Both the position numbers and the translations under genes were made by a program. The notes beneath the pieces were generated by a model. The model was not told the origin of the DNA. It did not search any database and saw only the letters and a program-made list of their open reading frames with translations. A DNA stretch of 64,000 bases from Polytrichum commune. Lineage: Eukaryota > Streptophyta > Polytrichopsida > Polytrichales > Polytrichaceae. Of this stretch, positions 2,385 to 48,130 are shown in pieces. Location: assembly GCA_950295325.1 (NCBI GenBank), contig OX485804.1, positions 10,852,001 to 10,916,000 of the forward strand. The letters are read 5' to 3'. Position 1 is the stretch's first letter; each line of letters starts with the position of its first letter.

Positions 2385-3597
2385 ACCACGTATGAACTAA
2401 TGAGAGTATCCCCCTTCTGTCACCAACTAAAAATTGCTTGCCTTTATAATATTTGGATACCCTACCCTCCCCTCTCTCCATTATGCTTTGTTGGGCTCAT
2501 AATGTTACTTAGAACAACAACTGCTATTGTTTGAGTCATTACTGTAGATAATGTACATGGGGTACTAGAAATTGTTTTTTGTCTCACGTATAGTACATTA
2601 AGAATGCTAGTATTTTTTTTTTTGAAATAAATGTTGATGTATTGAAGGGGGCCCTAAGGTTAAGAGAGGAAATTGAGAATATTGATTTTAAAGCAACCCA
2701 TAGTACACCTATGACAATAGATGTGCTACTTTCATGGCATCTAGGTGCTCAAAGTTTGTGTACGTATTAATACAATTATGTATAGGTGTATAAAAGTGGG
2801 TAAATTAAACGGGTTGGATGGTAGGGTAGTGGCAATGTAATTACTAGTTTAAATGCTAGATGAGAGGAGATAACATGATATTGGAGTGAATATCATTACA
2901 TCGTATGCAAAACAAAAAAATAGATGCTAGTTTAATTTTGAATGACACGTATTTTTATACTCCATGTACTATTGTTGTTGTTGTGGTTGATGTTTCACGC
3001 GACACTATAATTTTCTGTCTCCTAGTTCTACAATGACCTCTCAATATTAGGTACTTCAATATTATAAACCACCCCTCAACAATGTTCAATGCTCATATAT
3101 TATTAGCCAATTTTCTTTGTTGTCCACCATAAATACGTAGATGCCTTTTGCTTTGTCATTATGTGGACTCATGGTCTATGCATGTTGTCCACTATGAATA
3201 CACATTCCATTGTAAGGTTGGCACACGGAATGTAGTAATGTTAGGTTTTTATTTATAGGACGTAGTTGGTGGCTAGTATCCTATGTTGGAAAACGGATCC
3301 AAGGGAAACGATCAGTACTTAAGGGGACACCCCTCCACCAAGGGAGTCTTTTTGCATCTCAGATGTGGGTTGCGCTGCTTGGACCCTTGTAGTGTTCTGG
3401 ATGTTTATTTCGTGCAGGTATAGATCCTATTGCAATGGACCTTCTATACCCTAAACACTAAATTCCAAGCCATAAACCCATTAGTGGAGCCAATTTTTAT
3501 GTGGATTGCACTGTCTGGATCCTTATAGTGATTGATTTTTGTTTATGGCAAGTATCGTTCCTGGTGAAATGGTCCTATTATGGCGCCGCAAATCACG
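2385..3597. other. Intergenic DNA, no gene seen
   Basis: No ORF of note. A short segment near 2,640-2,675 containing GGGGCCCTAAGGTT resembles one near 39,475-39,510, which hints at a dispersed repeat. The left end of the DUF7869 element that follows probably lies in this stretch, but I could not find a convincing terminal inverted repeat. Confidence 0.4.
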
Positions 3598-4016
3598 GAG
3601 GTTTACGGACGTGCGTCCGTAAACCTTAAACCTCTTGCTTGGTTGGATATCTATTGCTGTGAGAATTGTACTTGAGCTATTTCATGTACATTGAGGTTTA
3701 CGGACGCGTGTCCGTAAACCTTAAACCTCTTGCTTGATTGGATATGTATTGCTGTGAGAATTATATTTGAGCTATTTCATGTACATTGAGGTTTACGGAC
3801 GCGCACCGTAAACCTTAAACCTCTTGCTTGATTGGATATCTATTGCTGTGAGAATTATAGTTCAGCTATTTCATGTACATTGAGGTTTACGGACGCGCGT
3901 CCGTAAACCTTAAACCTCTTGCTTGATTGGATATCTATTGCTGTGAGAATTATAGTTCAGCTATTTCATGTACATTGAGGTTTACGGACGCGCGTCCGTA
4001 AACCTTAAACCTTTTT
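3598..4016 (+). repeat. 95-bp tandem array of 28-bp palindromes
   Basis: Five copies start at 3598, 3693, 3788, 3882 and 3977 (period 94-95 bp). Each begins with a palindrome whose arms are AGGTTTACGGACG and its complement around a 2-bp centre (CG or TG); the first spans 3599-3626. The third copy has lost 2 bp in the centre. The rest of the unit (TTAAACCTCTTGCTTGATTG and following) is nearly identical between copies. Position directly upstream of the DUF7869 gene suggests a link with that element. Confidence 0.92.
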
Positions 4017-4777
4017 GTTCCATTGTTCGGTATTGCACCTGAGCTGACATCATGACCACTTGCCATGTATAGTATACCAACGAGACTGTATTACCATGAA
4101 AATTTTCTGACTCACGTACAGTAACCTAAACCTATTTGTGCTAGTAATGAGGTCCAGAGAGGTTTACGGACGCGCGTCCATAAACCTGCAAACCTTTGGT
4201 TCCATAGTTTTCACCATGTGCCATGTAGAATATTACATTGAGACTGTACGGTCAATGGAGGTATAAGATCTTTAAACCCTAAACTTACATCACCCTATGT
4301 GTCATAGTGTAATATTTTGACATTGATAAAACACAGTAGGAAGCGCGTATGTGAACCTCTTCTAATTCATAGTCGTCAGGCCTGGATATACATGTCCGTG
4401 GCACCTGGACATCTTGGTTCCCTAAACCTCTGTGTGTCTTGCACAACACTGACTTTTGACATTCGGATGTTTGGGGACGCACGTCCGTATACCTATGTTG
4501 TATAGTTTGCGAAAACATTTGCGCATGATATTGACCTCTTTGACCACGAAGAGATTTACGGGTGCGCGCCCATAAAACTGTCATGTTTTTGTTATCTGGA
4601 CCTTTCCGCCGACTATGAACAAATAAAGACATATGTATGCGCGTGCTTGCACTGATAATGTTGTTACATGGAGATATACGTACGCGCGTTCGTATACCAA
4701 TGTGTCTTTGTTTCCAGGCCATGAAATCCACTATTGTTGACATTGTGTTTCATTGACAATAAGCGTTAGGACTATCC
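4017..4777 (+). repeat. Diverged single copies of the same palindrome
   Basis: Further palindromes of the family occur at 4160-4187 (one mismatch), about 4474-4493, 4551-4577 and 4671-4697, each more diverged than the last and no longer in a regular tandem. They run up to the start of the downstream gene. ORFs here read through palindromes and are not credible genes. Confidence 0.75.
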
Positions 4778-4837
4778 ATGACATTTATTGAATGGGATAT
4801 TTTGACATACTCTTCATGTGGGTCACTTGTAGTGGCC

Positions 4838-7800
4838 ATGGATTCCAACGTCCGAGATAGTGCATTCGAGTTCTCTTCGGAAGCGTCAAGCTATGCTAGC
4901 GAATTTGAAGGTGTCATGGAACAGGAAACTACAATTGGTGTCGCCAATGCAGAGGATGATTTCATACCACCATGTGAGGGTTATTCGCGGGAACAATGGA
5001 TTGATCTTGATGTTGTCATAGTCAATGGATACGGCGTCCCCGTGGCCAATGGTGTTTGTAGGAACTCAAATCCTACGGACTGTATTGATGCAAATCCCCT
5101 TGGAGAGGAAGATGTTGGGGTGTGCATTTTGAACTCCTTACATCCATTGGAAGTACCTCCTGGTTGGAGATTCTCTCTTCGTCGATGGCCGTTGCGAAGT
5201 GTTCTTCACGATGGTGTCAGCTTGTGGAATCATGCACGTTTTTTTGAGGAAATACAAAAGACTTTGTTCGCCACAATGCGTCCTAGACAAGGTCGGCGTA
5301 AATATGATTCCGTTCGCGTGTCCCATGAACCCACGCAATATCGTCGAGATCTAACATTGGGAGACACATCTATTAGGTCCATAGCAACAAAGGATTGTTG
5401 TGCAAAAATGTGTTGCCAACTATTTCCCCGTGACAAAATCAAATCTTTGAGACAAGAGATGTGGCTTGCAGACTTTCGGATGCGATCTGCAAAGAAACTT
5501 GAAGTTCATCGCAACATGCACTTTGATGCCGAAGATCGTAACGTTGTGACCTTGGAAAATATAGAGGTATGCTGCACGGCATGGTATATTATACATGCAG
5601 TTTCAAAGGCAGATTTTTATAGGTTCCGGAACTACTCGCTGCAAGGACGGCGTTCTCGGTTCCATGGCAACTCTGGTACAAAGAAGCCCAGGGAGGCAAC
5701 ACTCCAAGCGGCTGCAACACTATCAACCATCATTATGCCATTAGCAGATGCGATGCCACACAAGACACGGACTCTGCCGTCGGGGGAAAAGGTTGTCCAG
5801 ATGGTTTTGCCTACAGGGACAAAATGGAAGAACATATTTATGGATGTTAATGAGGTTGGCAAAAAGGCTGGATGTGGGCCGATTTCGTTGTCAAAATTGA
5901 GTGTGATCAAGAATCAACAAATTGCAGAGTACATTACGAAGAGGCCTGGGGATAAGTTTGCTAGGTGTTCTGCTTGTGAGAAATATAAGGGCCTTCGAGA
6001 TGCACATCCAATAGGGACTGAGTCGCACAATAGACATCAATGGAAATACATTGAGCATGTCAATAACCAGGAGGCACACCGTCAAGACTACTACAAGAAT
6101 CGCGCATTATCGATAATGAGGCCGAATGAGGTTTTGACAATCATTCATGACAAAATGGACCATGCGAAGACTGCGTGCCTTTGTTATGCACGGAAAATAC
6201 AGGCTACAGATGGATATTTCAAGCTCCCAATATCTGTCACAGGTTCGTTGGTTTTCACATTTTTTTGCGCACCCACGTACTCATCGTTAAGAGTTACGGA
6301 TGTACGTCCGTAAATGTTTGTCTGCTTGCGAAAAAATTGAATTTCCTTATCATATATGATATTGGAATGTACTTCTCATTTGTATGTCTTAATTCAGGTA
6401 TGATTGCACATGGCCATGTGGACGTCAAGTATGCACATTATGGCTTGGATTTCTATCCGGGCGACGCCAATCATATCATAGGGTCTTTTGCAAAACTTCT
6501 ACGAGATCTTGAGAGTCTGCCAACATCATCCTCTCGCGCTCTTTTTGTTGGATGTGGAACAACACCGATTTATGAGGCTGTGCTAGAGGGGAAAGAAGTA
6601 TGTCTATCGTCACTGCAAGAACCGCCTGAACAAACTGTTCTTGCTAAACCTTTGCCTCCAACTCTACATGTGCAACTGGACAATTGTGCCAAAGACAACA
6701 AATGTCGATACGTGTTTTGTTTTTGGTCATTGCTCGTAGCCAAGGGCATTTTCAAAGAAGTGTTTGTGTCTTTTTTGATGGTTGGCCACACGCATGATGA
6801 CATTGACGCTTCATTTGGACGTTGGAGTATGAAGTTGCACGAGGAGGATTTTCCGACGATTCCTCTTCTCATGAAATCATACATGGATTTGGATAATGTA
6901 CCAGTCATCCCGCATTTGATTGAAGAAGTGTCCGATTTCAAAGCATTTATCGAACCATTCATTCTTAAGGGAGGTGACCGCTTAGTGGGCCATACCAAGG
7001 CTCAACAATTCCGATTCTATATGCGTGATGATGGTCTGCCGGCCATGCAATTCAAAGTTTTGTGCACTTCCCCGGATTGGGGTCCAGAGGAAGGGATACT
7101 CGTCTGGCGCCAAAACGAAGAGGGCAAATGTATGCTACCTGATGGGGAGCCGAAGCCTTGCAAACCCAACCCCATGAGGAATGGACCAGAAATCATCAAA
7201 GGTATATCCGGATTCATCCAATATTGGAAAGAGTTGTGCGAGGAAGACATCACAAGGCGTGTTCGGGATACCCACGAACCATTGATTACGTACTGGGATC
7301 GCATTCGCTCAACATTGCTAGCACCCGATGTTGAAACACATTCATGTTTGACACAAGGTTTTTGGCCACAAAGTCGAGTGACAATCGTGGAATCTGAGGC
7401 CATGTTCTTCGACAATGGGGACATTCGTGAAGAGTTCGCAACGGACGACCATTATGTTGGCCCAGCTCGTAATCGTCCGGCTCCATCATTTCGTGTGGCT
7501 GTTGATTGCTACGAAGGGTATATGATCCTCGTACGTCCTGGAGATGAGGAGCACCCTAAACCGATTTGGTTGGTAAAAACATTGTCATCACCAAATTTTG
7601 TTCCAACTAGCCCAAATTTTCATCAAATTGAGGTGGAATATTGCCGTCCCAACACCAAAGATCAAAATGTGCTCCGCACATATTTAGGGTGGGACACGAA
7701 AAAAGGTTTCAAATGGACAATGGACTCAGCATACGAACCAATTTGGATAAACACGGATACCATACTTTGTGCTTGGAAACCACGCAAAGGTTCCAAAACT

Positions 7801-7920
7801 GAGACAATGACCATCCCCCAAAAACATATAGATTTTGCCAAAGACAACTTGGCACGTATTGCTGCTGCAGAAAACGATGTCGAGAATGGAAATGAAGCTG
7901 AAGATGAAGATGGTGAATGA
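4838..7920 (+). CDS. DUF7869-family protein, putative transposase, two exons
   Basis: Join 4838..6242 and 6398..7920 gives about 975 residues with no internal stop. The intron (6243-6397) has a GT donor, a TTCAG acceptor and phase 1, and restores a single frame (Thr-Gly-Met-Ile-Ala). ATG 4838 (context GCCATGG) was chosen over ATG 4778, 20 codons upstream in the same frame. The central part has features I associate with DUF7869: LDNCAKDN near residue 562 and VGHTHDDID near 597; an upstream DKMDH lies near 437. These acidic positions could be a DDE-type triad, which is inference. The C-terminus is acidic. Palindrome arrays upstream, one palindrome in the intron and a tandem repeat downstream mark it as a transposon gene. 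The intact frame suggests recent activity. Confidence 0.82.
6294..6313 (+). repeat. Intronic palindrome of the TTTACGGA family
   Basis: Arms TTACGGA and TCCGTAA flank a 6-bp centre. It sits inside the 155-bp intron of the DUF7869 gene and matches the core of the upstream 28-bp palindromes. Confidence 0.8.
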
Positions 7921-7957
7921 TATTGACGTAGGTTTGGACGAAATATATATACTATCA

Positions 7958-8222
7958 GATTTACGGATGTGGAATCCAAATGTTTTTTATGTTTGTGTTT
8001 TTACGGATGTGGACCCTAAACTATATAATTATATTGCATGGATGCGTTGATTTACGGATGTGGAATCCAAATGTTTTTTATGTTTGTGTTATTACGGATG
8101 TGGACCCTAAACTATATAATTATATTGCATGGATGCATTGATTTACGGATGTGGAATCCAAATGTTTTTTATGTCTGTGTTTTTACGGATGTGGACCCTA
8201 AACTATATAATTCTATTGCAGA
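7958..8222 (+). repeat. 91-bp tandem repeat, 2.9 copies
   Basis: Units start at 7958, 8049 and 8140, an exact 91-bp period with very few differences. Each unit carries TTTACGGATGTGGAATCC and a second half-site TTACGGATGTGGACCC. The TTACGGA core is shared with the palindromes upstream of the DUF7869 gene, so both ends of the gene carry related motifs. Confidence 0.93.
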
Positions 8223-8786
8223 TACTAATTTGCAATTTCATTGGAATATTGTGTTGGCATAGTTTTGATTATCAACTGAATAATTACTATATTTAGAAAT
8301 ATATATATTCATCACATATGGATCTTTAAAACATTATGTTGCCATTGTTCCCCATGTTCCCCATGTTCGCTACGTTCACAGTATTCGCATCCGAAACTAC
8401 GGGTCCAATTTATTTTGAGACTTTCCAAAGTCTCCAATTAACGAATATAGTGTTTTATTCTACTAGATCATAAAACCATATGATGAAAGAAAACCAATGC
8501 AATAGATCCTATGCCAGAAAATTACCACCACCATGGAAATCATGGTTTCTTACCCATGGTTCTCTTCCACTAGATAGGTGATTTGCAACTTATGAATATG
8601 GATTGGGAATCTATTATTATAGTAGACCATAAAACCATTTGGTGGAAGCGAACCAATGATAAGGATTTGCAAATCATGTATTGCACACTTGAGTGGCTAC
8701 AAGTTGTTATTAATTTTAAATTGTGTGTCTCTTATTGGGAGTAGTATTGCATAATGCATAACATTAAACCCTCCCCTAACAAGCAG
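8223..8786. other. Intergenic DNA, no gene seen
   Basis: No ORF of note. An imperfect direct repeat of about 45 bp (containing CATAAAACCAT) occurs near 8,465-8,510 and 8,626-8,670. Confidence 0.5.
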
Positions 8787-26058: not shown

Positions 26059-26068
26059 AGCATTGTTG
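26059..26068 (+). repeat. Left 10-bp target-site duplication of the MULE
   Basis: AGCATTGTTG, repeated exactly at 37,545-37,554. A 9-11 bp duplication is the usual size for Mutator-like elements. Confidence 0.9.
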
Positions 26069-26122
26069 GGGGAGTGCTATCTTATGAGCGGTGAGCGATG
26101 AGCGGTAACTTATGAGCAGTGA
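26069..26122 (+). repeat. MULE left terminal inverted repeat
   Basis: About 54 bp, beginning GGGGAGTGCTATC and containing TATGAGC plus tandem GAGCG(G/A)T units. It pairs with 37,456-37,544. Confidence 0.88.
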
Positions 26123-29100
26123 AGAAGATGAAAATTTTGGTAATAGGGCCACCAATATCCTATAACCGTGGAATTGTGGCCTTAAAAATGATGATTTTAG
26201 GGTTTAGTAATAAGAGGGTTGAGAAGGATAAACAACATGAAGTCCAAAAATTTATTCATCAGTAGTAGCACTAGACATGAAACTATCTTTTGCCTCGTCA
26301 TCTATATATATTCGAGCACCTTTGCATTGCGAATTGATTTTGGAACTATAGCAAGATTCCTCATTTGGATCCGAATCTTCGAGATTCAACATTGCAATTG
26401 CAACATTCTCGGCATATGATGGGAGACGCGGGCTACGGCTTGGACTTCGTAGGAATTGTCTATGTGCCCAAAACGGGAGACATGTCCTCTTTCCAATCGT
26501 ACTCCTGAAATCAAATCGATGAAACATGTAAATAATGTGAAGAAATAAAAATGAACCAATGAATTGAATGAAACGAATGAATTGAATAAAAATTTATTGT
26601 ATTAAAACTTACTCACACTCAAATTCAAGCATCTCCTCATCGGAGAGGTTATCATCTTCTTTTGTGAGATCTTGTATATTCTCCTTAGATGACCCTTCTT
26701 TCAAAACGTTTTCCAAAAGCGGTTTCAATATGTACTCAAACATGTCATTATCACCCTCAAATGCAAGAAGATGTCTGCCACATGCGCGTGTTGCTAGGAT
26801 AGAAGCTCCAGTGGAACATGTCAAATCAACAACGCGTCCATTCGATGGTGTAAACAATTCAATAAGATCTTGAAAAAAACGCGGCGATTTTTTATATGGC
26901 CCCCTCCAAGGTCTTCCCGATTTTTGAAGAAGCATGTTTTTTTCATCCACAAAATTGAAAAGCAAGTTTTTGCTTTTCAAATCCAGTGGCAAAAAAAGTG
27001 GAGTTTGGTTGTCTCGTGGATTTTGTGGTAGTAAAATCCCTTACCAAGACATGAGCCATAAATGCCGGAGTCTACAAAAAAATATAAATTGTGTTAAAAC
27101 TATATACAATACAAATAACACCAAAATAATTAAATAGAAACAATTGTGATATGTTATACTTACGGTGTAGGTTGGAGACTCCGGATCCTTGAACACCATG
27201 TACGAATTGAGGCAAATAAAAGTCCTAAGAACTTTCATGTTGCCGTTGTGTAAGGTTGAATTCAAAACCTTCTTGGTTTGCATATCGATAGCAGAAAATA
27301 CTATGAGGACGCCATCATCAGACAAGATGGACTTGCACAAGGACATTGTTGCAACCATCCAGTTCTTGTCATATTTATTCCAAAGAGGAATTTCAGCAGG
27401 TCTATTGGAGAGGTTGAAGTCAAGACCGTCGGGAAATTGTAGAAAAACCAAGTCAACGGCAAATGGAGTCGGACTTCCCATGACATGAAATTCGCGATTG
27501 TCTTTGAACTGAAATACCACAACATATCACAATATAAGACACAAAATAAAATCCAAATGAAAGTAAAAACATTACAGAAAATACCAAAACAATAATACTT
27601 ACGTTTTCAAGAAATGTCCGCCATTGGATCCACTCAGGAGGGCCTACTTCAACCCCTTCAGACTTGTTCTTGACAACAGTAGATCGAGCAAAAGAGAGCG
27701 TGAGAAAGTTCTTCAGTATGAATAACTCTTTTCTCAAAACATTCGTTGGCGCACGATGAATAGCGTCATAGGTGCTCGAGTAATGGAATTCCAATACATC
27801 GCACCCAGACTTTGAACTTTCGCCTCCAAGTGGATTCTTATCCAAATCATTGGAAAGAACAAGCAATTCTTCATGTTGTGAAATTTCCGATTGATCTTGT
27901 ATTTTGGTTTCAGGAACATGTTTTCTCTTACGACGTTTTTTCTCTTTTGGTTCTGGCTCTCTAAATTTAAGCTGCACAATTTGTGCTTGCAAAATTGCAG
28001 TATCACGAGGATCCACATTTTTAGCATCATTTATCTGACGGATTGTCTTCTCACTTGACGGACATGCATCCTTAGGATAATCAAGATACCAACCACAATC
28101 CTCATAGTGTGGGAGCGACCAATCCAAACAAATCTCAGTAGTGAACATGCATGAATCTCCTGCACCAGTGTCACGCCAATTTGGGAAAAAACGAGGTTCC
28201 CCTATAATGCATTTATGTGGAATCAAAACATATCGAAAATACCTACACACAAAAATATTATAAGTCAAATATTCCATGATAATTTAACAAATAGAATCAA
28301 AAAAATCAAAAAAATAATAAGATTAGGTTGTACCTGTATAATACACGTTTCATAGCAAGATCAATATTAGGTTGCTCATCCCAACCGTTGTGTTTTTTAA
28401 CTTTTCCGCTTTGGAATTCACGATAGAATATTGAATTGAAAGCCGCAAACTTCCAGGTTTGGATATACTCGGAGAGAGTAGGCACATCTGTAGGCAACTG
28501 AAGAGGAGATGAAAGAATACTTTGAAGCTCTTCGATAGCCTTTTTTCCAACTGTGCCCAATATGTAGACTTTGATAACCAATCATCAAGTGCAGAATCAG
28601 AGAGGGGCGATTTCGGGAAATGCAATGCATCTTTGTCAAATCTATTGCCATTCCAAAGCTTGAGCCATCCAACTTTGACTTCTGCATCCACATTACTGAC
28701 AGCAACACGATGAAGTTTCTCTTGTAGCATTTCAGGCACCGAAAATGAACCCCAATGGTGCTTAACTTCTTCAAGGAAAGCAGAGGTAAGGTTGATATCG
28801 GCAATCGCTAGTTGTTTCGTAAAACTAGAAGATAACATTGCACGTTTTTTGTTGACAGCTACGGACATTGCTTTTGAAACTCCGTCTGATGTCCGTTCAA
28901 GAGGATGAGTTTCATTGTACTAGTTGAGAGCAATATCGTTAGCCTCAGCAAGTTCTTGCTGAAAAATCAAACAAAAGTTAATATTTATAAGTTCATATAG
29001 ATGTAATGTAAAATGAAGGTGAATAAACATAAGGCACATATTAGCAATGGTAGAAGAACTTACACTGTACATGTAATCCAAAAAAATTGGTCGTGTCAAA

Positions 29101-30383
29101 GAATACCAAGTTTCGATGGACTTCTCCTCACATCGTTTATAACTCTTTGGATCCAGTTGCTTTCTGAAGGAAGTCAAAGGCATGGTGCCAATACTTTGCA
29201 TCCGATATAAAGTATGCACCAAATTGGTGGATACGTGAGAATTTTCGGTTGACCTAAAAGAAACATTAAATTGATTAGATTCATGATGATATAATTTGGA
29301 AAACAAAATATAAACTAGAAATAAGTGTAAAAAAATAGGAAAGAACATTACTTGTTGATGTCATGCATAGCAGTCAACAAATTTGGAATGTCGTCAGGCT
29401 CGGACGCCAAAATGATAGAATCCACAAAGACATGACGTTCATAATCTTCGGTATATACGCGGTCAATATAATTTTTCCAAACAAGAAATCTGTGATTTCT
29501 ATCCCATATAAAAAATATCTTGTTCTTGTATGACGTCAATGACAAATCTGTATCCAATTGAGATTCAAACAGGGCATTGGCTTGAGCCCAATTTGGGCTC
29601 CATTATGCGCCAACCTCATCATCCACGAATTGAAAGTTTCCCTTAGAATCGGTGGCCGATATATAAAATACACGGTCACCATCACGATAACCATTGAAAA
29701 AATCAGCCTCCAATTTAGTAATGTCACCCTTCAAAGCAGGACGCACAATCGGCATAGAAACCATGCGACATAAGGGTACACGCAAGCGAGCATTAGGTCC
29801 AGCACGGATTGAAGAAATTGTGGAAGTGAAATTGACCTTTCGTTTGTTCGTAAGTTCCCACACTTTCTCTTGATAAGTTTTATTGTCACCATCATTATCT
29901 TCAATAAGGTAAAAATTATCGAGTCAAAATTACCGAGTCAAAATTATCGAGAGATTCATTTTTTATTTTTTTTTCTTATTATGAACATTTGACGATATGT
30001 CCTGATGATGATGAACTTGTTGAGATGGACGATCTTGAGTTGAATGCATTGTGGAATCATCATCAGTAGAAATAGGAGTCGTTCTTTCCAAATCCATTGA
30101 TTGGTCCTAAAACAAATGAAATAAATTTCATAAATATTTCAAAATAAGTAGCAATACATTAGCAATAACATTACAAAAACAACAGCAATAGCAACAACAA
30201 TAACAACAGAATACCACGAACACAGGGAAGAATGACAAAAATTATCCTAGACACAGTCATTTGCACCTTTAAATATTGTACGATTAGGGTGGCCGCTCAC
30301 CCCAAAACTACAAGGCCAGACCCTGTGCGTTAACGCACAAGGGCTGTGCGTCCAACTACAGGTCTAACAAAGTTGGACGCGAG

Positions 30384-30661
30384 GTTTGGGTCGTTCGACC
30401 CAAACTATGCTCACAGTTTGGGTCGTTCGACCCAAACTAGGCAGACAGTTTGGGTCGATCGACCCAAACTAGGCAGACAGTTTGGATCGATCGACCCAAA
30501 CTAGGCAGACAGTTTGGGTCGATCGACCCAAACTAGGCTCACAGTTTGGGTCGGCCGACCCAAACTAGGTAGACAGTTTGGATCGATCCACCCAAACCAT
30601 GCTCATAGTTTGGGTGGACCGACCCAAACTAGGCTCATAGTTTGGGTCGGCCGACCCAAAC
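30384..30661 (+). repeat. Palindrome array, exact 32-bp period, nine copies
   Basis: Copies start at 30384 and every 32 bp to 30640. Each is a 22-bp palindrome with arms GTTTGGGTCG and CGACCCAAAC around a variable 2-bp centre (TT, AT, GC). Each is separated by a 10-bp spacer such as TAGGCAGACA or TAGGCTCACA. A few copies have one or two arm mismatches (GTTTGGATCG). The array lies inside the 2.07-kb first intron of the methyltransferase-like gene. The same palindrome with the same 32-bp period recurs in the transposase gene intron at 35,242-35,359. Confidence 0.95.
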
Positions 30662-30875
30662 TGTCCGCAATTTACGCCTGATTATGCGCAATTACCCAGT
30701 CACCACGAAAGTGCAAACAAACCTTGTACTGCACCTGTAGATGAGAGAGCTTGCAGCGATGACCTCAGGTCCGACGGAGGAGAGAAAAAAGACTGAATGC
30801 TTTGGGGTTGTAGCAATTTATACTACTTGTCCCTGCAGCCATATTAAGCATGGCTCTTCGTGGCCCCGCATAGCC

Positions 30876-31006
30876 GCTAGAAAGTTGCCAGCGCAGACCC
30901 TGTGCGTTAACGCACAGGGTCTACTTGCCCAACTTTGCGAAGCCTCTAGCTAGGCAAGTAGACCTTGTGCGTGAACGCACAGGGTCTGCGCTGGCAACTT
31001 TCTAGC
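30876..31006. repeat. 54-bp inverted repeat with nested palindromes
   Basis: Arms 30,876-30,929 and 30,953-31,006 are complementary with about two mismatches and a 23-bp loop. They begin GCTAGAAAGTTGCCAGCGCA. Each arm itself contains a copy of the CCCTGTGCGTT/AACGCACAGGG palindrome (30,898-30,919 and 30,963-30,984), so the arms can fold in two ways. Another isolated copy lies at 31,048-31,069. Confidence 0.9.
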
Positions 31007-31479
31007 CACTATGCGTTACCGCATACACCTTGTGCGTTAGCACATAGACCCTGTGCGTTAACGCACAGGGCCGAGACGTGAATTTGAAAAAAAACGTGTT
31101 TTTTTTTTTGTTTTTGTAAAATCTGGAAAAAATGCTAATGGGATCCAAAAAAAAAAACAAAAATATGCTATATTATCTAAATTTCCGTAGCTACAAATTC
31201 TTCTGATATTTTGTTTTGGTTTGAAATGATTTTCTTTTCTCATTCTTCTATCTATTTCCTTGTTTTGGGGAACCTCGTAGATTTTTGGTTTCGGGGCAAA
31301 AAAAAATTTATGCTATTTTGTATCATTTTCTAGCTCCTATAACGTATTTCATGAATACTTGAGTAGTCATATTTGTCATTTCTTGCATTCTAACCTCGTT
31401 TTGAATAGTTTTTTTGCTCCTATGTTCTGAACATCGATTTAAATTCATAGAATAGATATTTGTTTTAATTTTAGGCTCT

Positions 31480-32130
31480 CCTAGTCGTTTTACCTCCCAA
31501 CTTTTGGCCTTCCTAAATTGCTCTTACAAACCCTGTGTGTTAACGCACAGGGTTTTACCTCCCAATTTTGGCCTTCCTAAGTTGCGCTTACAAACCCTGT
31601 GCGTTAACGCACAGGGTTTTTCCTCCCAACTTTGGCCTTCCTAAGTTGCGTTTATAAACCCTGTGCGTTAACGCACAGGATTTCTCCTCCCAACTTTTGG
31701 CGTTATTAAGTTGCTCTTACAAACCCTTTGCGTTAACGCACAGGGTTTCTCCTCCCAACTTCGGCCTTCCTAGGTTGCTCTTATAAACCATGTGCGTTAA
31801 CGCACAGGGTTTCGTCTTCCAACTTTTTGCCTCCTAAGTTGCTCTTATAAACCCTGTGCGTTAACGTACAGGGTTTCACCTCCCAACTTCTCGCCTGTTA
31901 AGTTGCTCTTATAAACCCTGTGCGTTAACGCACATGGTTTCGCCTCTCAACTTCTCATCTCTTAAGTTGCTCTTATAAACCCTGTGCGTTCTCCTCCTGA
32001 CTTCTAACCTTCCTAAATTTCTGTTATATACCATGTGCATTGACGTATAGGGTTTCTCCTCTCCAATTTATAACCTCTATAAATTGCTACTACATGATAT
32101 GTGAGTGAACGTACAAGGTTCTCCGTCCTA
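31480..32130 (+). repeat. Palindrome array, 64-bp period, about ten units
   Basis: Palindromes with arms CCCTGTGCGTT and AACGCACAGGG start at 31531, 31595, 31659, 31724, 31788, 31852, 31916 and 31980. The period is 64 bp, with one step of 65. Two more diverged copies follow (about 32,031 and 32,095) after a 13-bp deletion. The rest of the unit reads TTTCTCCTCCCAACTT, then CCTTCCTAAGTTGCTCTTA. The array lies in intron 1 of the methyltransferase-like gene. Its period is exactly twice that of the neighbouring 32-bp array. Confidence 0.95.
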
Positions 32131-32461
32131 ACTTATAACTTATGCACTATCAAATTATGTGAACGTTGAACTGACTTACCTTTTTGTTTGTCGTCTTCTT
32201 TGAACCCGTCTTCAATTCGGACTCTGATATACGATCGTCTACATCTTCTTTGCTCTTTGCACCTTCATCATCCTCCATCGCATCAAAATCCAGTGTCTTC
32301 ACAGTTTTTTCTACTGTACTCAACAAGTTTCTTTTCCTTTCCTTTTTTGCATCATTCTTTCCCACACTAAGTCTGAACCTCTTTTTCTCGGAAGTGAAAT
32401 ACAAAGCTTTCCTACGTCTTTTCTTCGGCCTCACGGGTGTTCTCTCTATATCGTCTACCAT

Positions 32462-32983
32462 CGTTGGTGTCTATGATATGTTTTCTATCAGGTACTATCA
32501 TTTATTCTTCCAATGTATCTATCTCACAAAATCCGGCGTATATTACGATCACATGTTGTAATTGGCGTTCAATGAACGAGATAGTTCAACGCGTTTGTCA
32601 TTATGTGTTTATTTTTGTTATATCCGCCAAAATTTTCTGACACCTACTTTGTTCTATTCATAATGATCAATAATTTATTTTTCCAACCAATTTTAATTCT
32701 TTCTACATCTGCGTCAGTCCACACATATATATTTTAAATTTCTACCAATCCTTTTAGTCTTTGACGCCGTTTTGTGTATATTTTGCTCATAAATAGTCTC
32801 TGACTATTATTGTATTATGTCCACTTCTGTATTATTAGATGCTATGTATCACACGCTTTCATCTCCATCCATTATTGTATCACACGTTTTCATTTCCATT
32901 CATTTCCTCACACAACTCTATACAAAAGCAACATTCACCCCATATTTTTGTGATGTGTTGTTCATATGTTCTTTTGATTTTCT
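32462..32983. promoter_or_regulatory. Shared divergent promoter region of the MULE genes
   Basis: The two start codons (32,461 minus, 32,984 plus) face away from each other across 522 bp of AT-rich DNA. TATA-like stretches occur at about 32,724 (TATATATTTTAAAT) and 32,785 (CATAAATAG). Assignment as a bidirectional promoter rests on gene layout only. Confidence 0.45.
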
Positions 32984-35900
32984 ATGGCTACCATTAGAGC
33001 TCATGGATCTTTTGTTCCCTTCATCTTACCACTCCAAGATGATGGTCATGTGAGTGTTTCAGAGGATTTACTTAGTTTGAGATTCAACCTCCAGATAGGA
33101 ACCATGTATTTAGAGCATGAGATGTACTCTGCAGATGGAGAGGTGTATGAAACGATTTTGGTTCCAAAAAATAGAACTGATGTTGATTTTATGTGGATCT
33201 TAGGACCTGGTTCATTTAGGGTGATAGGACTTTCTGAGTCTCAAATGCAAGCTTCAACTGTCATTTTGACAAACGAATCCGGTACATCCACAGTTCAAAT
33301 TCCCTCTATCACACCTGTTAAGGTGAAACCCCTTGATGATAGTGTATTTGTGCTATCAGATTCAGAAGATGACATTTGTGCATCTGTTGATCTTTCAAAC
33401 ACATCACCATTTCCATTTAGAAGTGTAGCCAAATCCCCTTGCGGTCTTATGTACAAAAAGGTGGTTCCCCAAATCTCACCTTCTGAACGTCCTCCACTAC
33501 ACCCTTCACCTTCATCTACAGGGTTGACTATGGTTGATGCCTTGAAGCTGACAAAGTCAAGAAAAAGATCAAAGTCCGATCTTGCATCTATTGATTTTGA
33601 CAGTATAGATGTTCGTGAAGTCAAGTACTTACCATCTTCTTTTAATGGTGATGTTTTATTTCTCTTGCCTCCTGTGGCACTCAAAGCTCCAAGTACGTAT
33701 GGTCGCTCAATGGACGGCATGGACAAGATGTGCGACGGTCACCCTAGGTGCACCACCAAAACCACGAATATCCAAAATGACTTTGGACTGTCCTTCCGGC
33801 GCTCTACTTGTGCTGGTCATCTCCAATGTCATAATGACTACTGTGATTACATGAATCGCAATGGGGGCCTCCGGAACAACACTAAATGGGTCGGTTCAAC
33901 TCCTATCCCATTTGCTGTGGGTGTTGTTCCCCCTACTAAGTCCACTGTCGAGTGTAAGGTATGTCGTTCCACACCTGTGTGCATTGCTTTGTGTAATACT
34001 CAAATCATATACATTCACTCCACATCCGTTGGAATGTCCAGGGCTTGCATTCATCTTGGTGTACATGATCACCCTATGGCCAATGGCACATGCCGTGAAT
34101 CATTGGACATGGCATACCAATGCGTTGCAAATGAAGTATTGAAAACACCCACAGCAAAAAATTCAGCCATAGTTATGGCGGCGAGCAAACAATTCTTGGC
34201 CGATTACCTTTTCAAATCTCCCGTAAATGTCGAAGGCCATCACTTGGTTGGTTCATCCCTAGAGGTCGTCATGGACAAATTCAGCACTCTTGCCTCTCTA
34301 AATTGTCGTAACTTTGTATCTGGATCAAAGCGTTTTTTGCGTAGTGGAATGGGAACTATAGATAATATTATGGCGCTCAAAGACCACTCTGCTTTCAAAT
34401 TCGTCCATGGTAGTCGGTTCCCAGGGCAGTCAAAGGACAAAGTGTTTGTTTTTAAGATGTCTGTAGACCTTCCAGGTAGAGGTGTGGAGCTTATGAAGAG
34501 GATGCAAGTCGGTGGGGATATGGAGAATTCATGAATTATGTTTGACCATGTCAAACGTTTGAAGGATTGGACGACCATGGCTTGCCATATGTACGACAGT
34601 CGATACTGTAAAGTGTTGACTATTGCGTGTTGTGACATGCAATCTGAAGATGGTGCAGCGCAAATTCTCTTTTGGGAAAATTTGAATGCTGTCATGGCAG
34701 ATAATGATGTACCAAACGTAAACTTCAAAGGGTTTATGGCTGATAGTGCTCAAGCTAATTGGAATGCGGTGAGGACGATTTACGGGGATGGTGATCCAAG
34801 TCTACCTATGGTTGCACGTGAGCGTACATGTCTTTTCCATTGGTCCGCAAGCTTGGATAAGGTGACCCAAAAGTATATCAAACCATCCTTGCAATTTCAA
34901 CACAAACAAATATGCAAGGATTACAAAGACGCGAAAACAATGGACGACGCTGAGACCAAGTACCATGTGATTCATTCTTGGTGGTTGTCATCTGGAGCTG
35001 CCTCCGAAGAAGGCATCCTTGGCCTTTCAGAGTGGTTGGGATTTTGGCACTTTCGTTACAGACAATGGGGTGGCCATATGCTACTTGTAAGTACATATCA
35101 AACTTCATTATTCAATGTAATATATCCTATGTTTTTCTTATTTTTGTCTTTCTGTGTTGTTCATAGGATATGACAATAAAAGAGCGTGCGGGAATGCCAA
35201 TATGCAACCTTGCAGAGATTGTACATAACAAACAACAAACAGTTTGGGTCGTTCGACCCAAACCTTGCAGGCAGTTTGGGTTGTTTGATCCAAACCTTGT
35301 AGGCAGTTTGGGTCGTTTGACCCAAACGTGGCAGCCATTTTGGGTTGAACGACCCAAACCTAGATATATAATCTATCTTATGTTTGTCTTATCCTTGTAT
35401 TTGTGTGTTGTTCATAGGATATGTCAATAGAAGAGCGTGCGGAAATGCCAACATGCAACCTTGCAGAGACTGTACACAACAAATGGCTCCAACAGTCCGG
35501 CAACTAGATGTCTTGTTTATATGAAGCTACAGTGGACGACATGATCTGTGCCTTCATGCAAATTGCAAATTACCGGACATGGTTGAAAAGGGGGTCTGAT
35601 GGTAAAGGTCCTGATTCGGCATCCTTGAAACTCAAAGCGGCTGCCATGTGTGGAGATCCAAAAATGTTGGCCGATGCCATGAAGTCTTATCCAGGGGCAG
35701 AAGACGTCAACACTAGAGATTGTGCATTGGAAGGGTCAGAGCTCTTTGGTTCCACCAAACGCAAACTCAACCTACCACCGGGTGCTGATTGTGACTCTCA
35801 TCGACCCGACAAAGTGAACTATTCCATTTCTCGTCCGAACACCCGAGCAACTCGTCAACGCATAGAGGAATCGTTGAGTTCTACAATTCATGGTGTGGCT

Positions 35901-36785
35901 CATACTACATCCGTGTTAAAGACAGATTGTCTTGCTTCCAAGTGGCACATTGCAAGATTACCACCCAACTCAGCCAAACGATGTTGGGCACTGCAGGCCA
36001 TCACAGGGACTATGTGCAATGCCAAAGTCGGGACTGGGAAACATGGCACACCTGCTCCAACATACAAAGGGCTCAGGAAGGAATTTTGCTCTCCCAACAA
36101 TGTGGAGTATGAATTTTGGTTTTGCCCTGACGACATCAAACGTTGTGTGAGTAGCAGTAAGAAGAAATATGTGTTGGACTGGCCTATAGTACCCAACACA
36201 TGGCCGGTGAAGATAGGTACCAATCTATCGCGAGAGGAGGTTTTGGCACTTGAAGATGCTGGATTTCAACTACAGCAGAGGAAGGCATTGTCCCCTCGTC
36301 GTAGGCTTTCAACAATCGCAACTCTCCCCATCCCTCGCTCGCATTTTTCTATGCCACCAAACCCGGACGCCTACCCTACATTCAGGTTTGGAAAGACAGT
36401 GCGTCGTAATCCAACAGCACCGCTAGCGGATCACAAAAACAAATGGGAGAGCGCCGGGCTCATGGAGGGTTACTATGTGGTTGGGGTCACTGCCATTCCA
36501 TATCCGGGCTTCGGAGTGATAATCAACATTGTCTCCAAACAGGATATTACCTACCATGTCACAATTGGCGACATCCCGCATTGCACATGCCCGGATTTCA
36601 CGAAAATGTCCTCTCATGCATTGGGAAAGAAAGGAAAATGGGTGTATTGTAAACATCTTTATTATGTGTTTAGATTTTTGTGCAAGGTGGATTACGAGAG
36701 TGACAAGTTCATTCATGCACCTACATATACCTATAACGAGGTCATGCGACTACTTGAACTTGCTGGTATTGTAGAGTGTGAGTAG
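32984..36785 (+). pseudogene. MULE transposase with SWIM zinc finger
   Basis: Join 32984..35086 and 35418..36785 gives about 1,156 codons in one frame with two internal stops: TGA at 34,532-34,534 and TAG at 35,505-35,507. A cysteine-rich cluster (CAGHLQCHNDYC) lies near residue 275 and may bind DNA. The MULE catalytic domain follows, with IACCDMQSED near 549, GFMADSAQANW near 585 and ERTCLFHWSASL near 620, as in MURA-type DDE transposases. The C-terminal SWIM finger near 1,089 shows CTCPDF then WVYCKHL (CxC...CxH). The first stop falls just before the catalytic domain, so no full product is expected. The intron has a GTAAGT donor and holds a palindrome array between two copies of the downstream exon start. 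Confidence 0.92.
35110..35480 (+). repeat. Intron/exon duplication around a palindrome array
   Basis: The stretch ending TTGTTCATAG and continuing GATATGACAATAAAAGAGCG (exon-like from 35,167) is repeated as GATATGTCAATAGAAGAGCG from 35,418, an offset of 251 bp. Between the copies lie four palindromes (35,242, 35,274, 35,306 and 35,338; 32-bp period) of the GTTTGGGTCG family. The downstream copy keeps the frame and is taken as the real exon. The upstream copy runs into the array and is now intronic. Confidence 0.9.
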
Positions 36786-37245: not shown

Positions 37246-37362
37246 TGGGCCTTAATTCAACCCGTGAGCAGTTTGAGTGGCTCACAATTATGGCACCTAC
37301 ATGTACGTATAATGAGGTTATGCACCTACTTGAGCTTGATGGTGTTGCTTGTGCTTCATTTA
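37246..37362 (+). pseudogene. Duplicated remnant of the transposase C-terminus
   Basis: GCACCTACATGTACGTATAA and what follows (37,290-37,362) repeats the last codons of the transposase (36,717-36,779, APTYTYNEVMRLLELAG) with about 80 percent identity. A preceding segment (CCGTGAGC.GTTTGA, 37,262) also repeats sequence near 36,931. It looks like a partial tandem duplication or the remains of an alternative last exon; it is preceded by an acceptor-like TTTGTAG. Confidence 0.7.
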
Positions 37363-37455
37363 AAATATTGGCAATTTACAATTGAAAATATGCAATTAAT
37401 TTGTCAAAATTTTGGTTGTGTACCCTAAACCCGTGTGTCTTTACTAAATTTGGAA

Positions 37456-37544
37456 TCATTGCTCATATGTTACTGCTCATTGCTCATGTGTTACTGCTCA
37501 CCGCTCACCGCTCACTGCTCATCGCTCATAAGATAGCTTCCCTC
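37456..37544 (-). repeat. MULE right terminal inverted repeat
   Basis: Reverse complement starts GAGGGAAGCTATCTTATGAG and continues with GAGCAGTGAGCGGTGAGC-type units. It is longer than the left copy because it has more tandem GAGCRRT units. Confidence 0.88.
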
Positions 37545-37554
37545 AGCATTGTTG
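37545..37554 (+). repeat. Right 10-bp target-site duplication of the MULE
   Basis: AGCATTGTTG, identical to 26,059-26,068. Confidence 0.9.
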
Positions 37555-38573
37555 GAATCTTTGAGGTGTTTATATGGAAATGCTCTTGTAGTAGTAAAAG
37601 ATACAGTTGCAGATATTGGATCTTGAACCTCAGGGCGCAATGTTGGGTGTTGCTTGGGTTGTATCTTGTTTCCTCTTGTTGTGATGTTGGTGTAGCTTGT
37701 CCACTCGGGCTACGCTGGTTCGGCCGGATTGGTTGTATTTTGGGCTTTTTTTGCAATTGAATCATCAATTTGTACCAAAAAAAAATACAATAATAAAAAT
37801 GTATGTGTAGCTTGTTGTTTGCCATTCTGGATTTATTTCTTTATTTCTTTAAGTATGTGTGTTGATGCGGGCTCCATCCCTGATCCTCTTGCATCTATGA
37901 CGACCTGTTTAGTCACATGATGTTGATTGAATTGCAGATTTTTCCATTGACTTTCCAAAGAGCCCATCTAAACTTGCAAATGGACTCCAACTGTGAAACC
38001 AAAATGTAAGTCATTGCCCGTTTACGATTGTTGATTATATCAAACATAATTTTGAGCTATTTCAATTGTTAGAAATATTAGTAGAGCTGGAACATACCTT
38101 ACATATTGTGTGTTTCACCCATAAATGCTTCAAGCTACATTGCATGGTCTACTACAAACCCTTAATAAGTTTTGAAGCCCATTTTCACTTGATTTGTGAG
38201 ATTGAGAGTAGATTTAGTAGCCCCTACTTTGAAGAGGAAGTGAAATGAAAGCTATATGCAGCAATGACGTTCAAATCTACACGGAATGTATATAAACATG
38301 TGTCATCTGCACAAGCCCAAATTGAAAAGAAAAATTGAAACATGTATTGGTCTAATTCTAAAAATGTAATGAGTGCTTAATTAACTAATTTAAAGCATGA
38401 GGTCACTTTGGACATATCGAGCGCTTCAAGTGAGCACTGTATGTTCCATGTTGCACCTTGTACAAGTGGATGTGTAATAGCTAATCAGTAATTAGGAGTC
38501 GATTAAGTATGCAACGAGAGATTAAGGCCCTTAATAGAAACATAAACTGTATAATAAGACTACCATAGCTTTA
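37555..38573. other. Intergenic DNA, no gene seen
   Basis: Short ORFs only, none with a recognisable motif. It forms the right flank of the MULE. Confidence 0.5.
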
Positions 38574-40867: not shown

Positions 40868-40880
40868 TTATTAACCGCAA
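40868..40880 (+). repeat. Left 13-bp LINE target-site duplication
   Basis: TTATTAACCGCAA, repeated exactly at 42,765-42,777. Confidence 0.9.
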
Positions 40881-42610
40881 AACTATCAGTATACAGAACC
40901 ATCACTCACGTCCATCATATGTATACATAACCAAGTTACACTGACACTAAACCCACAAACCTCACAAGAACTACAAAACATACTAAAGAGAATAACAACC
41001 ACACATATTGAAATACACCCTATCAAACCCACCCTCGCACACTACAACGTTAAATTCTCCAACAAATGGAAAAACGCCCCCCAAGTAAAAATCCTTCCCC
41101 CCCCCCCCCCCAATACCACCACAATACCCTTACCTCCCACATACTACCACATTCACCCTTTTAAATATGACCCTCAAAAATGCATATACACAGATGGCTC
41201 ATTCATCCCACCATCCAAAAACTCCGAGGGGCAAATAGAGTGCAATACCGCAGGTTTGGGAGTATATAGCCCCAACAACAATACCCAAATCTCAGAAAGA
41301 CTACCCAGATATCAAAACATCCTAAGAGCCGAACTGAATGCAATACTCATAGCCATTAAAACTATCCAAACCACCAGAAGGGACACACATATATTTACCG
41401 ACAACCTTAATAGCATATACTTAATCAACAACCACATACAACACCCAACATCCAACACCACCACCCAGACAAACTACTCATCCCAGCCATTATCCACCAA
41501 ATATATTGGACCCCACATATGATCCACATACACAAGGTACGAGCGCACACCGGCATTAGTGGTAATGAAATAGCGGATACTCTAGCAAATGAGGGAACAC
41601 AAAAAGACAAACCCAAAATCACACCACGAATACACATAGCCCACACTACCCCATATTGGCTAGCAAGTTGTCCAACTGCCACACACGATGGAGTCATCCG
41701 TAACCTCCGCACATTCATAACAAAAGAACACGAAAACCGGGAAAATAGTTCCGCCAATAGAAAGTTCCCATATGTTGACAAATGGCTATCAAATGAACAA
41801 ATCAACCAAAAACTCTCCAACCACTTATGGAAAAGCAAGCAGGTCCCCGATACGCAAATTACCCAAACTCTCAAATTTAGATATGCACAATACATGGGCA
41901 ACCATAGAAAAAACATTTTTTGGCCCCTCCAATACCAAAATCTCAATTGTACACTATGCTTAAGCAACAACAAAGACACATGGCCCCACCTACTATCAAC
42001 ATGCGAACACCCATACTTAAAAGGGCTAAGAATTACAAGGCACAACAAAGCCGTCCATCTAATCACCCAAACACTACAAGCCAACAGAAACACCAGGTTC
42101 TTTACACTGATCAATGCAGGTGACCTCAACAATCAACCGCCTGACCACATAGTACCTGAATGGCTCCTAGCATGCACATGTTCGCAAAGGAAATGCCAAT
42201 GCCAAGCCAAGCTAAGACCTGACATAATGTGCATTATAGGAGCCCCTAACCAAACACAAACACCTAAACTACCCTCCCCCAACCACACAATCCAATTTAC
42301 CGAATTCACATACTGCCATGACAGATTCCCAAAAGAAGCCCTCACACACAAACACACCAAATACGGCCCATTAATTAACACTATACAAAACAAAGGGTGG
42401 AAAGTCAACCCCCTTATCACCATTACAGCCGGAGTAAGAGGCGCTATCTACAAACATTCCATGGACCAACTAACCAAACTAAAAATCCCAAAGAACAACA
42501 TAAAAACCCTCATGAAGAAAATACACGAAAATGCCATTAAATATCTCACATATCTTGTCCTAAACAAAAGAAAACTTGATAACAAACAAACCCCTGTCCC
42601 CCCACCCTAA
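40881..42610 (+). pseudogene. LINE polyprotein C-terminus (RNase H, Zn knuckle)
   Basis: Frame 40,881 onward reads into a proline/threonine-rich linker, then RNase H: YTDGS (about 41,187), RAELNAILIAI, IFTDNLNSIYLI and VRAHTGISGNEIAD, so all four acidic positions and the histidine are present. A +/-1 shift between about 41,450 and 41,475 separates the first half from the second. The decayed copy at 22.7-24.5 kb (HPNKLLIARII) shows the expected reading there (HPDKLLIPAII). A Cys-Cys-His-Cys-like knuckle follows (CTLCLSNNKDTWPHLLSTCE), then a cysteine-rich CTCSQRKCQCQ and the conserved tail ending at 42,610. Family placement near Dualen/RandI-, L1- or I-type LINEs with RNase H is inference. Confidence 0.88.
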
Positions 42611-47273: not shown

Positions 47274-47399
47274 TATAGTGGTGCGAGAAACATCGCCTCA
47301 AAAAAGTTAGTTAACTATAGTTGTGTGAGAAGAGTTGTCTCAAAATAGTTAGTTAACTATAGTGGTGTGAGAAGTGGCGCCTTAAAATAGTTAGTTAAC
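47274..47399 (+). repeat. 42-bp tandem repeat, three copies
   Basis: Units begin TATAGTGGTGYGAGAA at 47,274, 47,316 and 47,358 and end AGTTAGTTAAC, so each junction recreates GTTAACTATAG. The period is exactly 42 bp. Confidence 0.92.
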
Positions 47400-48130
47400 T
47401 AAAGTTAACTATAGTGGGTGGACTATATGGTAATAGTGCCCTAATAATGCAGATATCCCTACCTTAGGCGACTCCATCACGGAATTGCCAACTTTCTTAA
47501 CAACTATAGTTAACTATAGTGGGGCAACTATATGGCAAAGTGCCCTAATATGCAGACACCCGTGCCTTACGCGACTCCGTGACAACATTCTCTGATCTCT
47601 GAGCCAACTTTGACTTTCAAGTTTCTCTGATCTCACTTCAGTGTACTTGTTAATTCAAATCTTGTTCTCTTCCGTGTTCTTTTCTGTGTATCTTTCCGAA
47701 CCCTGAGATTTGAAGAAATTGAATTATCGGGGACAATACTAAAGGCAAGTGACGCTTATATGAACTAGAATTGCTAAAAAGGTGATACTCTGTATTCATA
47801 TTATCGGTCGAACACGGTAACGTCCGGAAATGGACTTTCACTGTGCAATGGTTCAGTTGGGTTGTTTGTTGTGGATTCATCCAGGTTCGAGTCCCTCAAT
47901 GGCATTGGTATTTTTTTCTTGCAGCCTGCTGATGAGAGTCGGCATCGTAGTTAACTATAGTGGTGCGGTAACAGGTCGGCCTCGTGGACCTATTTAACTA
48001 TAGTGGTTGCAGAAGCAGGTCAGGTTGTGCAATAGTTAACTATAGTGATGAGCAATCGGATTGGCCTCGTGGTCTAGTTAACTATAGTGATGCCCTAAAC
48101 CAAGTACAAGAAAAGTAGTTAAAATAGTTA
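47400..48130 (+). repeat. Cluster of TTAACTATAGTG motifs and 104-bp repeat
   Basis: Two units offset by 104 bp (47,405-47,484 and 47,509-47,582) share GTTAACTATAGTGG, then ACTATATGG and GCGACTCC. More copies of TTAACTATAGTG follow near 47,952, 47,994, 48,040, 48,078 and a variant near 48,127. The core overlaps two palindromes, GTTAAC and AACTATAGTT. Similar motifs recur at 61,709-61,745. Confidence 0.85.
47835..47925 (+). other. tRNA-like sequence with boxes A and B
   Basis: Box A TGGTTCAGTTGG (47,849-47,860) and box B GGTTCGAGTCC (47,884-47,894) both match the pol III consensus. The acceptor and anticodon arms are not convincing and the A-B distance is short (about 23 bp between boxes). It is followed by a T-run. 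I read it as a degenerate tRNA or SINE head, not a working tRNA gene. Confidence 0.4.

Follow-up and report, generated by a model that had tools for sequence, protein, structure and literature searches.

The window analysed here is a stretch of 64,000 nucleotides from the moss Polytrichum commune (NCBI GenBank assembly GCA_950295325.1, contig OX485804.1, positions 10,852,001 to 10,916,000 of the forward strand). It holds a DNA transposon of about 11.5 kb, with terminal inverted repeats (TIRs) ending at 26070 and 37544, in which a transposase gene on the plus strand is paired divergently with an eight-exon gene on the minus strand (26252-32461, about 1,170 codons by summed exon lengths) that we call the accessory gene. 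The element lies on G000:C2; the genome measures 408 Mb and has seven large contigs, and related elements across it fall into seven families, A to G, by their version of the accessory gene, the window copy belonging to family A. In keeping with a land-plant host, the LEAFY SAM domain PF01698 matched four times in this genome, against no match in 14 prokaryotic control genomes. A first-pass annotation, made from the letters of the window, had described the element as bounded by TIRs and a target-site duplication (TSD) and had given the accessory gene eight exons. Both descriptions were borne out: the two copies of the direct repeat AGCATTGTTGG stand immediately outside the TIR ends, and splice sites were mostly kept across 13 aligned family A rows, the window copy included. 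The features of the element, in window positions, are as follows.

26059-26069: left TSD, an 11-bp direct repeat AGCATTGTTGG, with a 9-bp reading CATTGTTGG
26070-26241: accessory-side TIR and subterminal repeats, DNA common to family B and C elements at 75-78% identity
26242-32170: cassette of accessory exons 2-8 and arrays, for which families A and C show no homology at the DNA level (E ≤ 1e-5), although the flanks are homologous
26252-26504, minus strand: accessory exon 8, with the stop codon at its end
26613-27071, minus strand: accessory exon 7, with PWRG (motif X region) and motif I, VVDLTCSTGAS...AFEGD; one additional base in the window copy
27164-27508, minus strand: accessory exon 6, with motif IV, DLVFLQFPDG, in the position of DPPYG
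27603-28242, minus strand: accessory exon 5, linker with a basic stretch
28334-28958, minus strand: accessory exon 4, one base short in the window copy
29064-29253, minus strand: accessory exon 3
29352-30106, minus strand: accessory exon 2, with the WDGNHRxxAW region (WDRNHR in the window copy), ParB-like by motif alone
30384-30662: A2 array of palindrome GTTTGGGTCGnnCGACCCAAAC, 32-bp period
30895-31065: scattered copies of the A1 palindrome CCCTGTGCGTTAACGCACAGGG
31487-31990: A1 array of palindrome CCCTGTGCGTTAACGCACAGGG, 64-bp period, in intron 1
32461 to about 32180, minus strand: accessory exon 1, a Lys/Arg-rich N terminus partly common to family C elements
32939-35161, plus strand: transposase exon, 80% identical over 750 amino acids (aa) to the family B transposase; stops in the window copy
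35240-35361: additional GTTTGGGTCGnnCGACCCAAAC-type palindromes between the two transposase open frames
35508-36785, plus strand: transposase C-terminal open frame with a SWIM-like CxCx(n)CxH zinc-finger motif
37348-37544: transposase-side TIR and subterminal GCTCACCGCTCAC repeats
37545-37555: right TSD, AGCATTGTTGG

Comparison of the window copy with the other genomic rows located four coding indels relative to the majority, two in exon 2 (28 extra bases built from a repeated 14-bp unit, and the loss of one base) and one each in exons 4 and 7, in addition to in-frame stops. Other family A copies carry damage of their own: L007 has an insert within exon 2, and L014 (G000:C2:65340100-65345500) is missing exon 2 and the greater part of exon 3, has non-aligning DNA in their place, and is perhaps a recombinant copy. 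The exon encoding motif I by itself gave at least 151 matches in the genome at E ≤ 1e-5, and 144 family A places were used after second matches at one locus had been dropped, along with 17 family B places. Across the exons compared, the ratio of nonsynonymous to synonymous substitution rates (Ka/Ks) between family A subfamilies was 0.19-0.41 in all 11 pairs; the two methyltransferase exons taken by themselves gave 0.44-0.52. Four pairs of recent copies had ratios of 0.77-1.24. Purifying selection acted on the gene as the family expanded, and the gene decays after insertion. The possibility that the exons are a chance mirage was ruled out by the conserved splice sites and by Ka/Ks.

The C-terminal part of the window protein contains DLVFLQFPDG, SDDGVLIVF, PWRG, VVDLTCSTGAS and AFEGD, which had been read as the motifs of a beta-class amino-methyltransferase in their right order. 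Alignment to phage enzymes confirmed this reading, the order IV - X - I being found both there and in comparison among the families, and the profile searches suggested alongside that claim were run as well. The spliced family A domain matched Pfam PF01555 with 21.1 bits (E = 3.3e-4, positions 30-218 of 221), below the cut-off of 26.7, while family B scored 32.4 and 35.3 bits, above it. Further matches were to PHROG 67 ('DNA methyltransferase', E = 5.4e-8), to PDB DpnA with a profile of A and B (E = 8e-4) and, by hhalign, to phage ParB-methyltransferases (96.8%, E = 2.1e-10), with QFPDG aligned onto DPPYG. Family B matches family A at 36% identity (E about 2e-14), and families A, B, C and F all retain a recognisable motif I and PWRG region. 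Judged by these likenesses, the C-terminal domain of the accessory protein is a diverged relative of the beta-class enzymes that methylate the N4 position of cytosine or the N6 position of adenine (N4C/N6A).

Active N4C/N6A enzymes have [DNS]PP[YFW] as catalytic motif IV, whose aromatic residue, in the enzymes known, stacks against the base to be modified. In a census of 20 newly fetched family A copies, motif IV read QFPDG in 18, the others having QFSDG and QFPNG; among 11 newly fetched family B copies it was DIPDG in eight, with IPYG (in a diverged copy), KIPNK and EIPNG in the rest, and the family B locus L019 has DIPYG. Three family C loci have DYPDG and two family F loci EYPDG, family E has DIYDG and DINDW, and family G has DIPEN, the motif being readable in all families except D. 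The canonical DPPY occurred in no family with a readable motif IV, DIPYG or IPYG being found at two family B places only, and the aromatic position is mostly acidic. Since the aromatic residue has been replaced, mostly by an acidic one, we infer that ordinary amino-methylation was lost or changed in the accessory proteins. The earlier suggestion that the family marks its own DNA fared poorly in this respect: amino-methylation is unproven and, with a motif IV that is not DPPY, unlikely for the family of the window. An intact catalytic motif masked by damage to the window copy was also considered and was ruled out by the 20 further family A copies.

Upstream of this domain, exon 2 encodes a WDGNHRxxAW-type motif that families A, B, C and F have in common and that reads WEGNHR in G; we take this motif to be typical of ParB/sulfiredoxin-like domains. 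A tblastn search of phage sequences with the ParB-like region of family B was unproductive.

We then considered how regularly the accessory gene accompanies the transposase, using 59 listed transposase places. At 45 of these, a family A or B gene was found 3-14 kb away on the opposite strand. Among the 14 others, family C was present in the fetched DNA at three (L044, L045, L049) and family D at one (L050), and at three more (C3:34399276, C1:46510490, C5:30523673) the opposite strand carried a family C exon at a distance of 4.6-5.6 kb, so that a version of the accessory gene stands beside 52 of the 59 listed transposases. A family A gene lies in the expected orientation at 17-28 kb from four more, perhaps through nested insertions, and three have no assigned partner (C3:8740843, C1:438539, C3:52974600). 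The methyltransferase-like gene thus proved to be a regular divergent neighbour of the transposase, at these 52 places and also in a family F element. Intact members lacking the gene, which the first-pass annotation had named as a refuting case, were demonstrated at none of the 59 places, and no copy was demonstrated to be intact either.

Compared piece by piece, the accessory proteins of the other families are 22-49% identical to that of family A. Family F (L085, L086; G000:C3:16431300-16446500) has a transposase 46-49% identical to that of family B beside its accessory gene, whose exons contain few or no stops, and it is perhaps the youngest family. Families E and G are known from their accessory genes; one E element (L048, L012) has some shared framework DNA and a 63-aa transposase fragment, and for family G no transposase was found within the 8 kb fetched. 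A search with the exon-2 region of family C gave 150 scored matches, many of them stop-free. The capture of a host gene by one element on a single occasion was ruled out by the presence of several diverged versions in the same position. Two family B elements (L020, 5600-6764; L023, 2387-3499) have, between transposase and accessory gene, a protein-kinase-like frame (PK_Tyr_Ser-Thr, 24.7 bits, cut-off 23.1).

The A1 and A2 arrays of the window element are located within accessory intron 1, between the divergently oriented genes. Upstream of the accessory gene, every one of the seven families has a repeated palindrome of its own that contains CpG. These are TTGTGCGCTGGCGCACAA in B, GTGGCCGTTAACGGCCAC in C, GGTTTCGGTACCGAAACC in D, TAGGGCGTTAACGCCCTA in E, GCCGGCACCGGC in F (eight copies, in two unlike arrays) and GGGTGTCGTTTACGGCACCC, an imperfect palindrome, in G, the copy numbers covering fetched loci only. 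All contain CG-n4-CG except A2, which has CG-n2-CG. On a 0-9 scale, conservation over 71 A1 copies was 8.9 in the core and 5.3 in the flanks, and 92 A2 copies varied at two central bases only, the contrast between core and flank being inflated by the selection of copies for likeness to the core. The diverged subfamilies L001 and L013 retain the A1 core within different spacers. The A2 palindrome recurs at 35240-35361, so that the same site lies on both sides of the divergent pair.

Across the genome, the A1 22-mer has 444 exact copies and the family C 20-mer has 70, and the reversed control of each has 0. We tested the matching of array to gene on the first 50 listed copies of each palindrome, a non-random sample (A1 copies all on contig C1, family C copies on C1-C6), against the family A genes and 64 family C places of about 69% identity or more, one place on a small contig being omitted. 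The A1 palindromes lay 3.3-8.2 kb upstream of a family A exon 7 in 45 of 50 cases and in no case close to a C gene, and the C palindromes lay 0.3-1.8 kb upstream of a family C gene in 43 of 50 cases and in no case close to an A gene; the five A1 misses form one cluster and the seven C misses four. The remainder of the window (47.7 kb after removal of this element and of the transposon at 3500-8300) contained four palindromes and no repeated core, one of the four lying inside a 2.7-copy tandem repeat at 47294-47406.

The accessory genes and the transposases of these families have diverged to very different degrees. The transposases of A, B and C are 82-91% identical, with 0.09-0.51 synonymous substitutions per synonymous site (Ks): 0.45-0.51 for B against A and C, and 0.09-0.21 for A against C, at 90-91% aa identity. 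Their accessory genes show a Ks from 1.9 to saturation and 25-43% identity, the comparison of A with C being saturated, with 43% aa identity in exon 2. For C against F the relation is reversed, the transposases being 47% and the accessory exons 60-65% identical, so that family C is closer to F in its accessory gene and closer to A in its transposase; the palindromes of C and F differ despite their closer accessory genes. In comparisons of the window with three family C elements, homology covers 26068-26241 in two (the fetched DNA of the third being too short) and resumes at 32171, from where it continues to the transposase-side end of the fetched DNA. Between these flanks, 26242-32170 showed no homology at E ≤ 1e-5. 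Accessory exons 2-8 and the arrays are thus a single block, bordered on one side within intron 1 and on the other directly after the stop codon. Either this block was exchanged or everything around it was homogenised; fast evolution in place would not easily explain the pattern, because saturated synonymous sites stand beside a transposase at a Ks of 0.1-0.2.

As to the class of the element, Mutator-like elements (MULEs) are defined by TSDs of 8-11 bp together with TIRs. Of the eight elements examined for this, four, the window copy among them, could be followed to both ends, and direct repeats of 10-12 bp flank all four; in the remaining four a single end was located. The exact TSD length is ambiguous at 9-12 bp. 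The SWIM-like finger of the transposase scored 13.2 bits against Pfam SWIM, below the cut-off of 19.6. No Pfam match to the MULE domain PF10551 was found in the transposase, which was also not one of the 150 scored candidates out of 271. In hhalign the transposase matched neither the frames of L039 and L040 that hit PF10551 nor further frames of L039-L043, which may be the wrong ones. Because of the TSD length, the TIRs and the weak SWIM-like match, the element is likely a MULE; in these respects the first-pass assignment stood, while the PF10551 and hhalign comparisons gave it no match.

Elsewhere in the window, open frames with an RNase H domain at 40875-42610 are probably a retrotransposon remnant, and Rfam and transfer RNA scans of the window gave no match. 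Small G000 contigs (L015, L016, L028-L031) appear to be bacterial or phage contamination in the assembly, and one contaminant contig has a phage-type fusion of ParB and N6_N4_Mtase of 443 aa.

Taking these observations together, we propose, with a probability of roughly 55%, that the accessory gene and its arrays form an exchangeable self-recognition cassette, consisting of a nuclear DNA-binding protein and its own palindromes. The accessory protein, as the second gene product of a MULE-type transposon, would be built on a prokaryotic-type methyltransferase-fold (perhaps ParB-like) scaffold, would be nuclear and sequence-specific, and would bind the palindromes of its family. Such binding would control the chromatin or expression state of the family's own copies, the control being most likely anti-silencing or autoregulatory, and cassettes of different specificity would be swapped under a common transposase and TIRs, which may let sister families escape shared silencing or cross-regulation. 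The link between protein and array draws on co-inheritance and specificity rather than on binding. We hold more tentatively, at somewhat less than even odds, the narrower form of this proposal, in which an altered methyltransferase-fold protein itself reads the family palindromes and is shuffled with its cognate array as one block while the transposase is kept, comparable to the specificity subunits of restriction-modification systems, which are shuffled likewise. It had been suggested that the family may target or protect insertion sites, and it is the targeting half of this suggestion that gains indirect support, through the matched palindrome arrays.

Several observations weigh against the proposed cassette. 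All 13 family A rows examined are damaged somewhere in exons 2-8. The ParB-like region was negative in Pfam, PHROG, PDB-profile and hhalign comparisons, its likeness being one of motif alone, and its fold prediction was unusable, with a predicted local distance difference test (pLDDT) score of 42. The A1 palindrome is absent from the fetched stretch of three family A copies (L002, L007, L014), and the core-likeness selection noted above affects the conservation figures. CpG retention was 137/150 in A1 palindromes and 1078/1210 in exons, with no sign of protection; protected CpGs in the palindromes were ruled out by this lack of difference. A transposon elsewhere in the window, at 3598-8220, has palindrome arrays and no sign of an accessory gene. 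Its own transposon-like gene matches DUF7869 (E = 4.8e-40) and is flanked by arrays of palindrome TACGGACGCGCGTCCGTA (95-bp period) and of a 91-bp repeat. Finally, binding to the palindromes might instead be a property of the transposase or of a host factor, a point countered by the near constancy of the transposase among A, B and C while the palindromes change.

The alternatives were weighed against the same evidence. An active self-marking enzyme, which would place N4C or N6A methylation at or near the palindromes and so protect or advertise the element in the manner of a bacterial type II methyltransferase, would fit the recognisable motif I and PWRG region of A, B, C and F, and palindromes would be fitting targets for an enzyme that is dimeric or of type II; an algal Sola1 protein has been proposed to have this same activity (PMC12477816), and DIPYG at one family B locus and IPYG in one diverged B copy point in the same direction. 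The alteration of motif IV across A, B, C, E, F and G, with its mostly acidic residue in the aromatic position, speaks against this, and we consider such an enzyme unlikely. We regard as equally improbable that the protein serves repression or copy-number control, binding the array to shut down its own family, with cassette exchange as an escape from trans-repression: the position of the arrays between two divergent genes and the family specificity of the palindromes would suit this arrangement, but selection would have more difficulty in maintaining a purely self-restraining gene where the family numbers over 100 copies. Slightly less probable still is that the arrays serve transposon introns as hairpins or in connection with small RNAs, the gene being an unrelated passenger, as the arrays of the other transposon in the window and variable centres that also suit hairpin loops might suggest, since the arm sequence is conserved within a family (subject to the core-likeness selection) and the array type of A and C tracks the accessory gene while their transposases are 90% alike.

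The self-recognition cassette has partial parallels in known systems. The closest in gene content is Sola1-1_Ec32 of Ectocarpus, which carries on the opposite strand a gene for a ParB and N4C/N6A methyltransferase protein of 1104 aa (PMC12477816), and that paper cites green and red algal cases (Iyer 2011; Petroll 2025). Both accessory genes stand opposite a transposase, are similar in size, and combine a ParB-like region (by motif alone in our case) with an amino-methyltransferase domain; compared by description only, the algal element differs in belonging to the Sola1 superfamily and to an alga, ours being from a moss, and the passages on it contain no palindrome arrays, cassette exchange or changed catalytic motif (PMC12477816). 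The kind of transposon-borne ParB-methyltransferase protein is therefore already known from algae, and the variant described here, in a land plant, appears to be new. In the parts of the openly licensed literature that were accessible, we found no MULE or land-plant case, and no such palindrome arrays or cassette exchange. The main text of a Mutator survey (PMC6446971) contains none of 'methyltransferase', 'methylase' or 'ParB', and the available portion of a survey of eukaryotic N6-methyladenine mentions neither ParB nor Mutator (PMC12695648). The earlier statement that no MULE with such a partner gene has been described thus held for MULEs in these sources, but transposon-borne cases as such are known from algae.

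In its arrangement the cassette resembles VANC of the Arabidopsis VANDAL MULEs, which binds short motifs in the noncoding tandem repeats of VANDALs and removes DNA methylation; VANC is likewise a second type of MULE gene, with motifs in noncoding tandem repeats and fast divergence of protein and motif (PMC5735166, PMC10398659). The VANC motifs, of about 8 bp, are not termed palindromes in the text available, the stem 'palindrom' being absent from the main text of PMC10398659. The accessory families likewise have family-specific noncoding motif arrays, and anti-silencing is demonstrated for VANC, whereas we infer it for the accessory protein. We know of no methyltransferase fold in VANC. Phage fusions of ParB and N6_N4_Mtase (L016, L032, L033, L035-L038) have a methyltransferase alignable with ours over 205 columns, and differ in being intronless and 408-484 aa long; L016 has DPPYG and a true ParB_N Pfam match. 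The bdelloid N4CMT is also a eukaryotic gene for a bacterial-type amino-methyltransferase tied to transposon control, although, in the account available, it is a host gene with a chromodomain and demonstrated N4-methylcytosine activity and is not transposon-borne (PMC8885841).

Self-recognition by transposons and their escape from silencing are known in detail for few systems only. The present observations extend transposon-borne ParB-methyltransferase proteins from algae to a land plant, with a candidate target for each version. A single genome offers the accessory gene in seven diverged versions, a candidate binding site accompanying each, and well over 100 natural copies. It would therefore permit direct tests of how elements recognise themselves, of the exchange of cassettes and of what becomes of a methyltransferase fold whose catalytic motif is lost. 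If the narrower form of the proposal is true, the cassettes would amount to a modular change of epigenetic identity for plant transposons.

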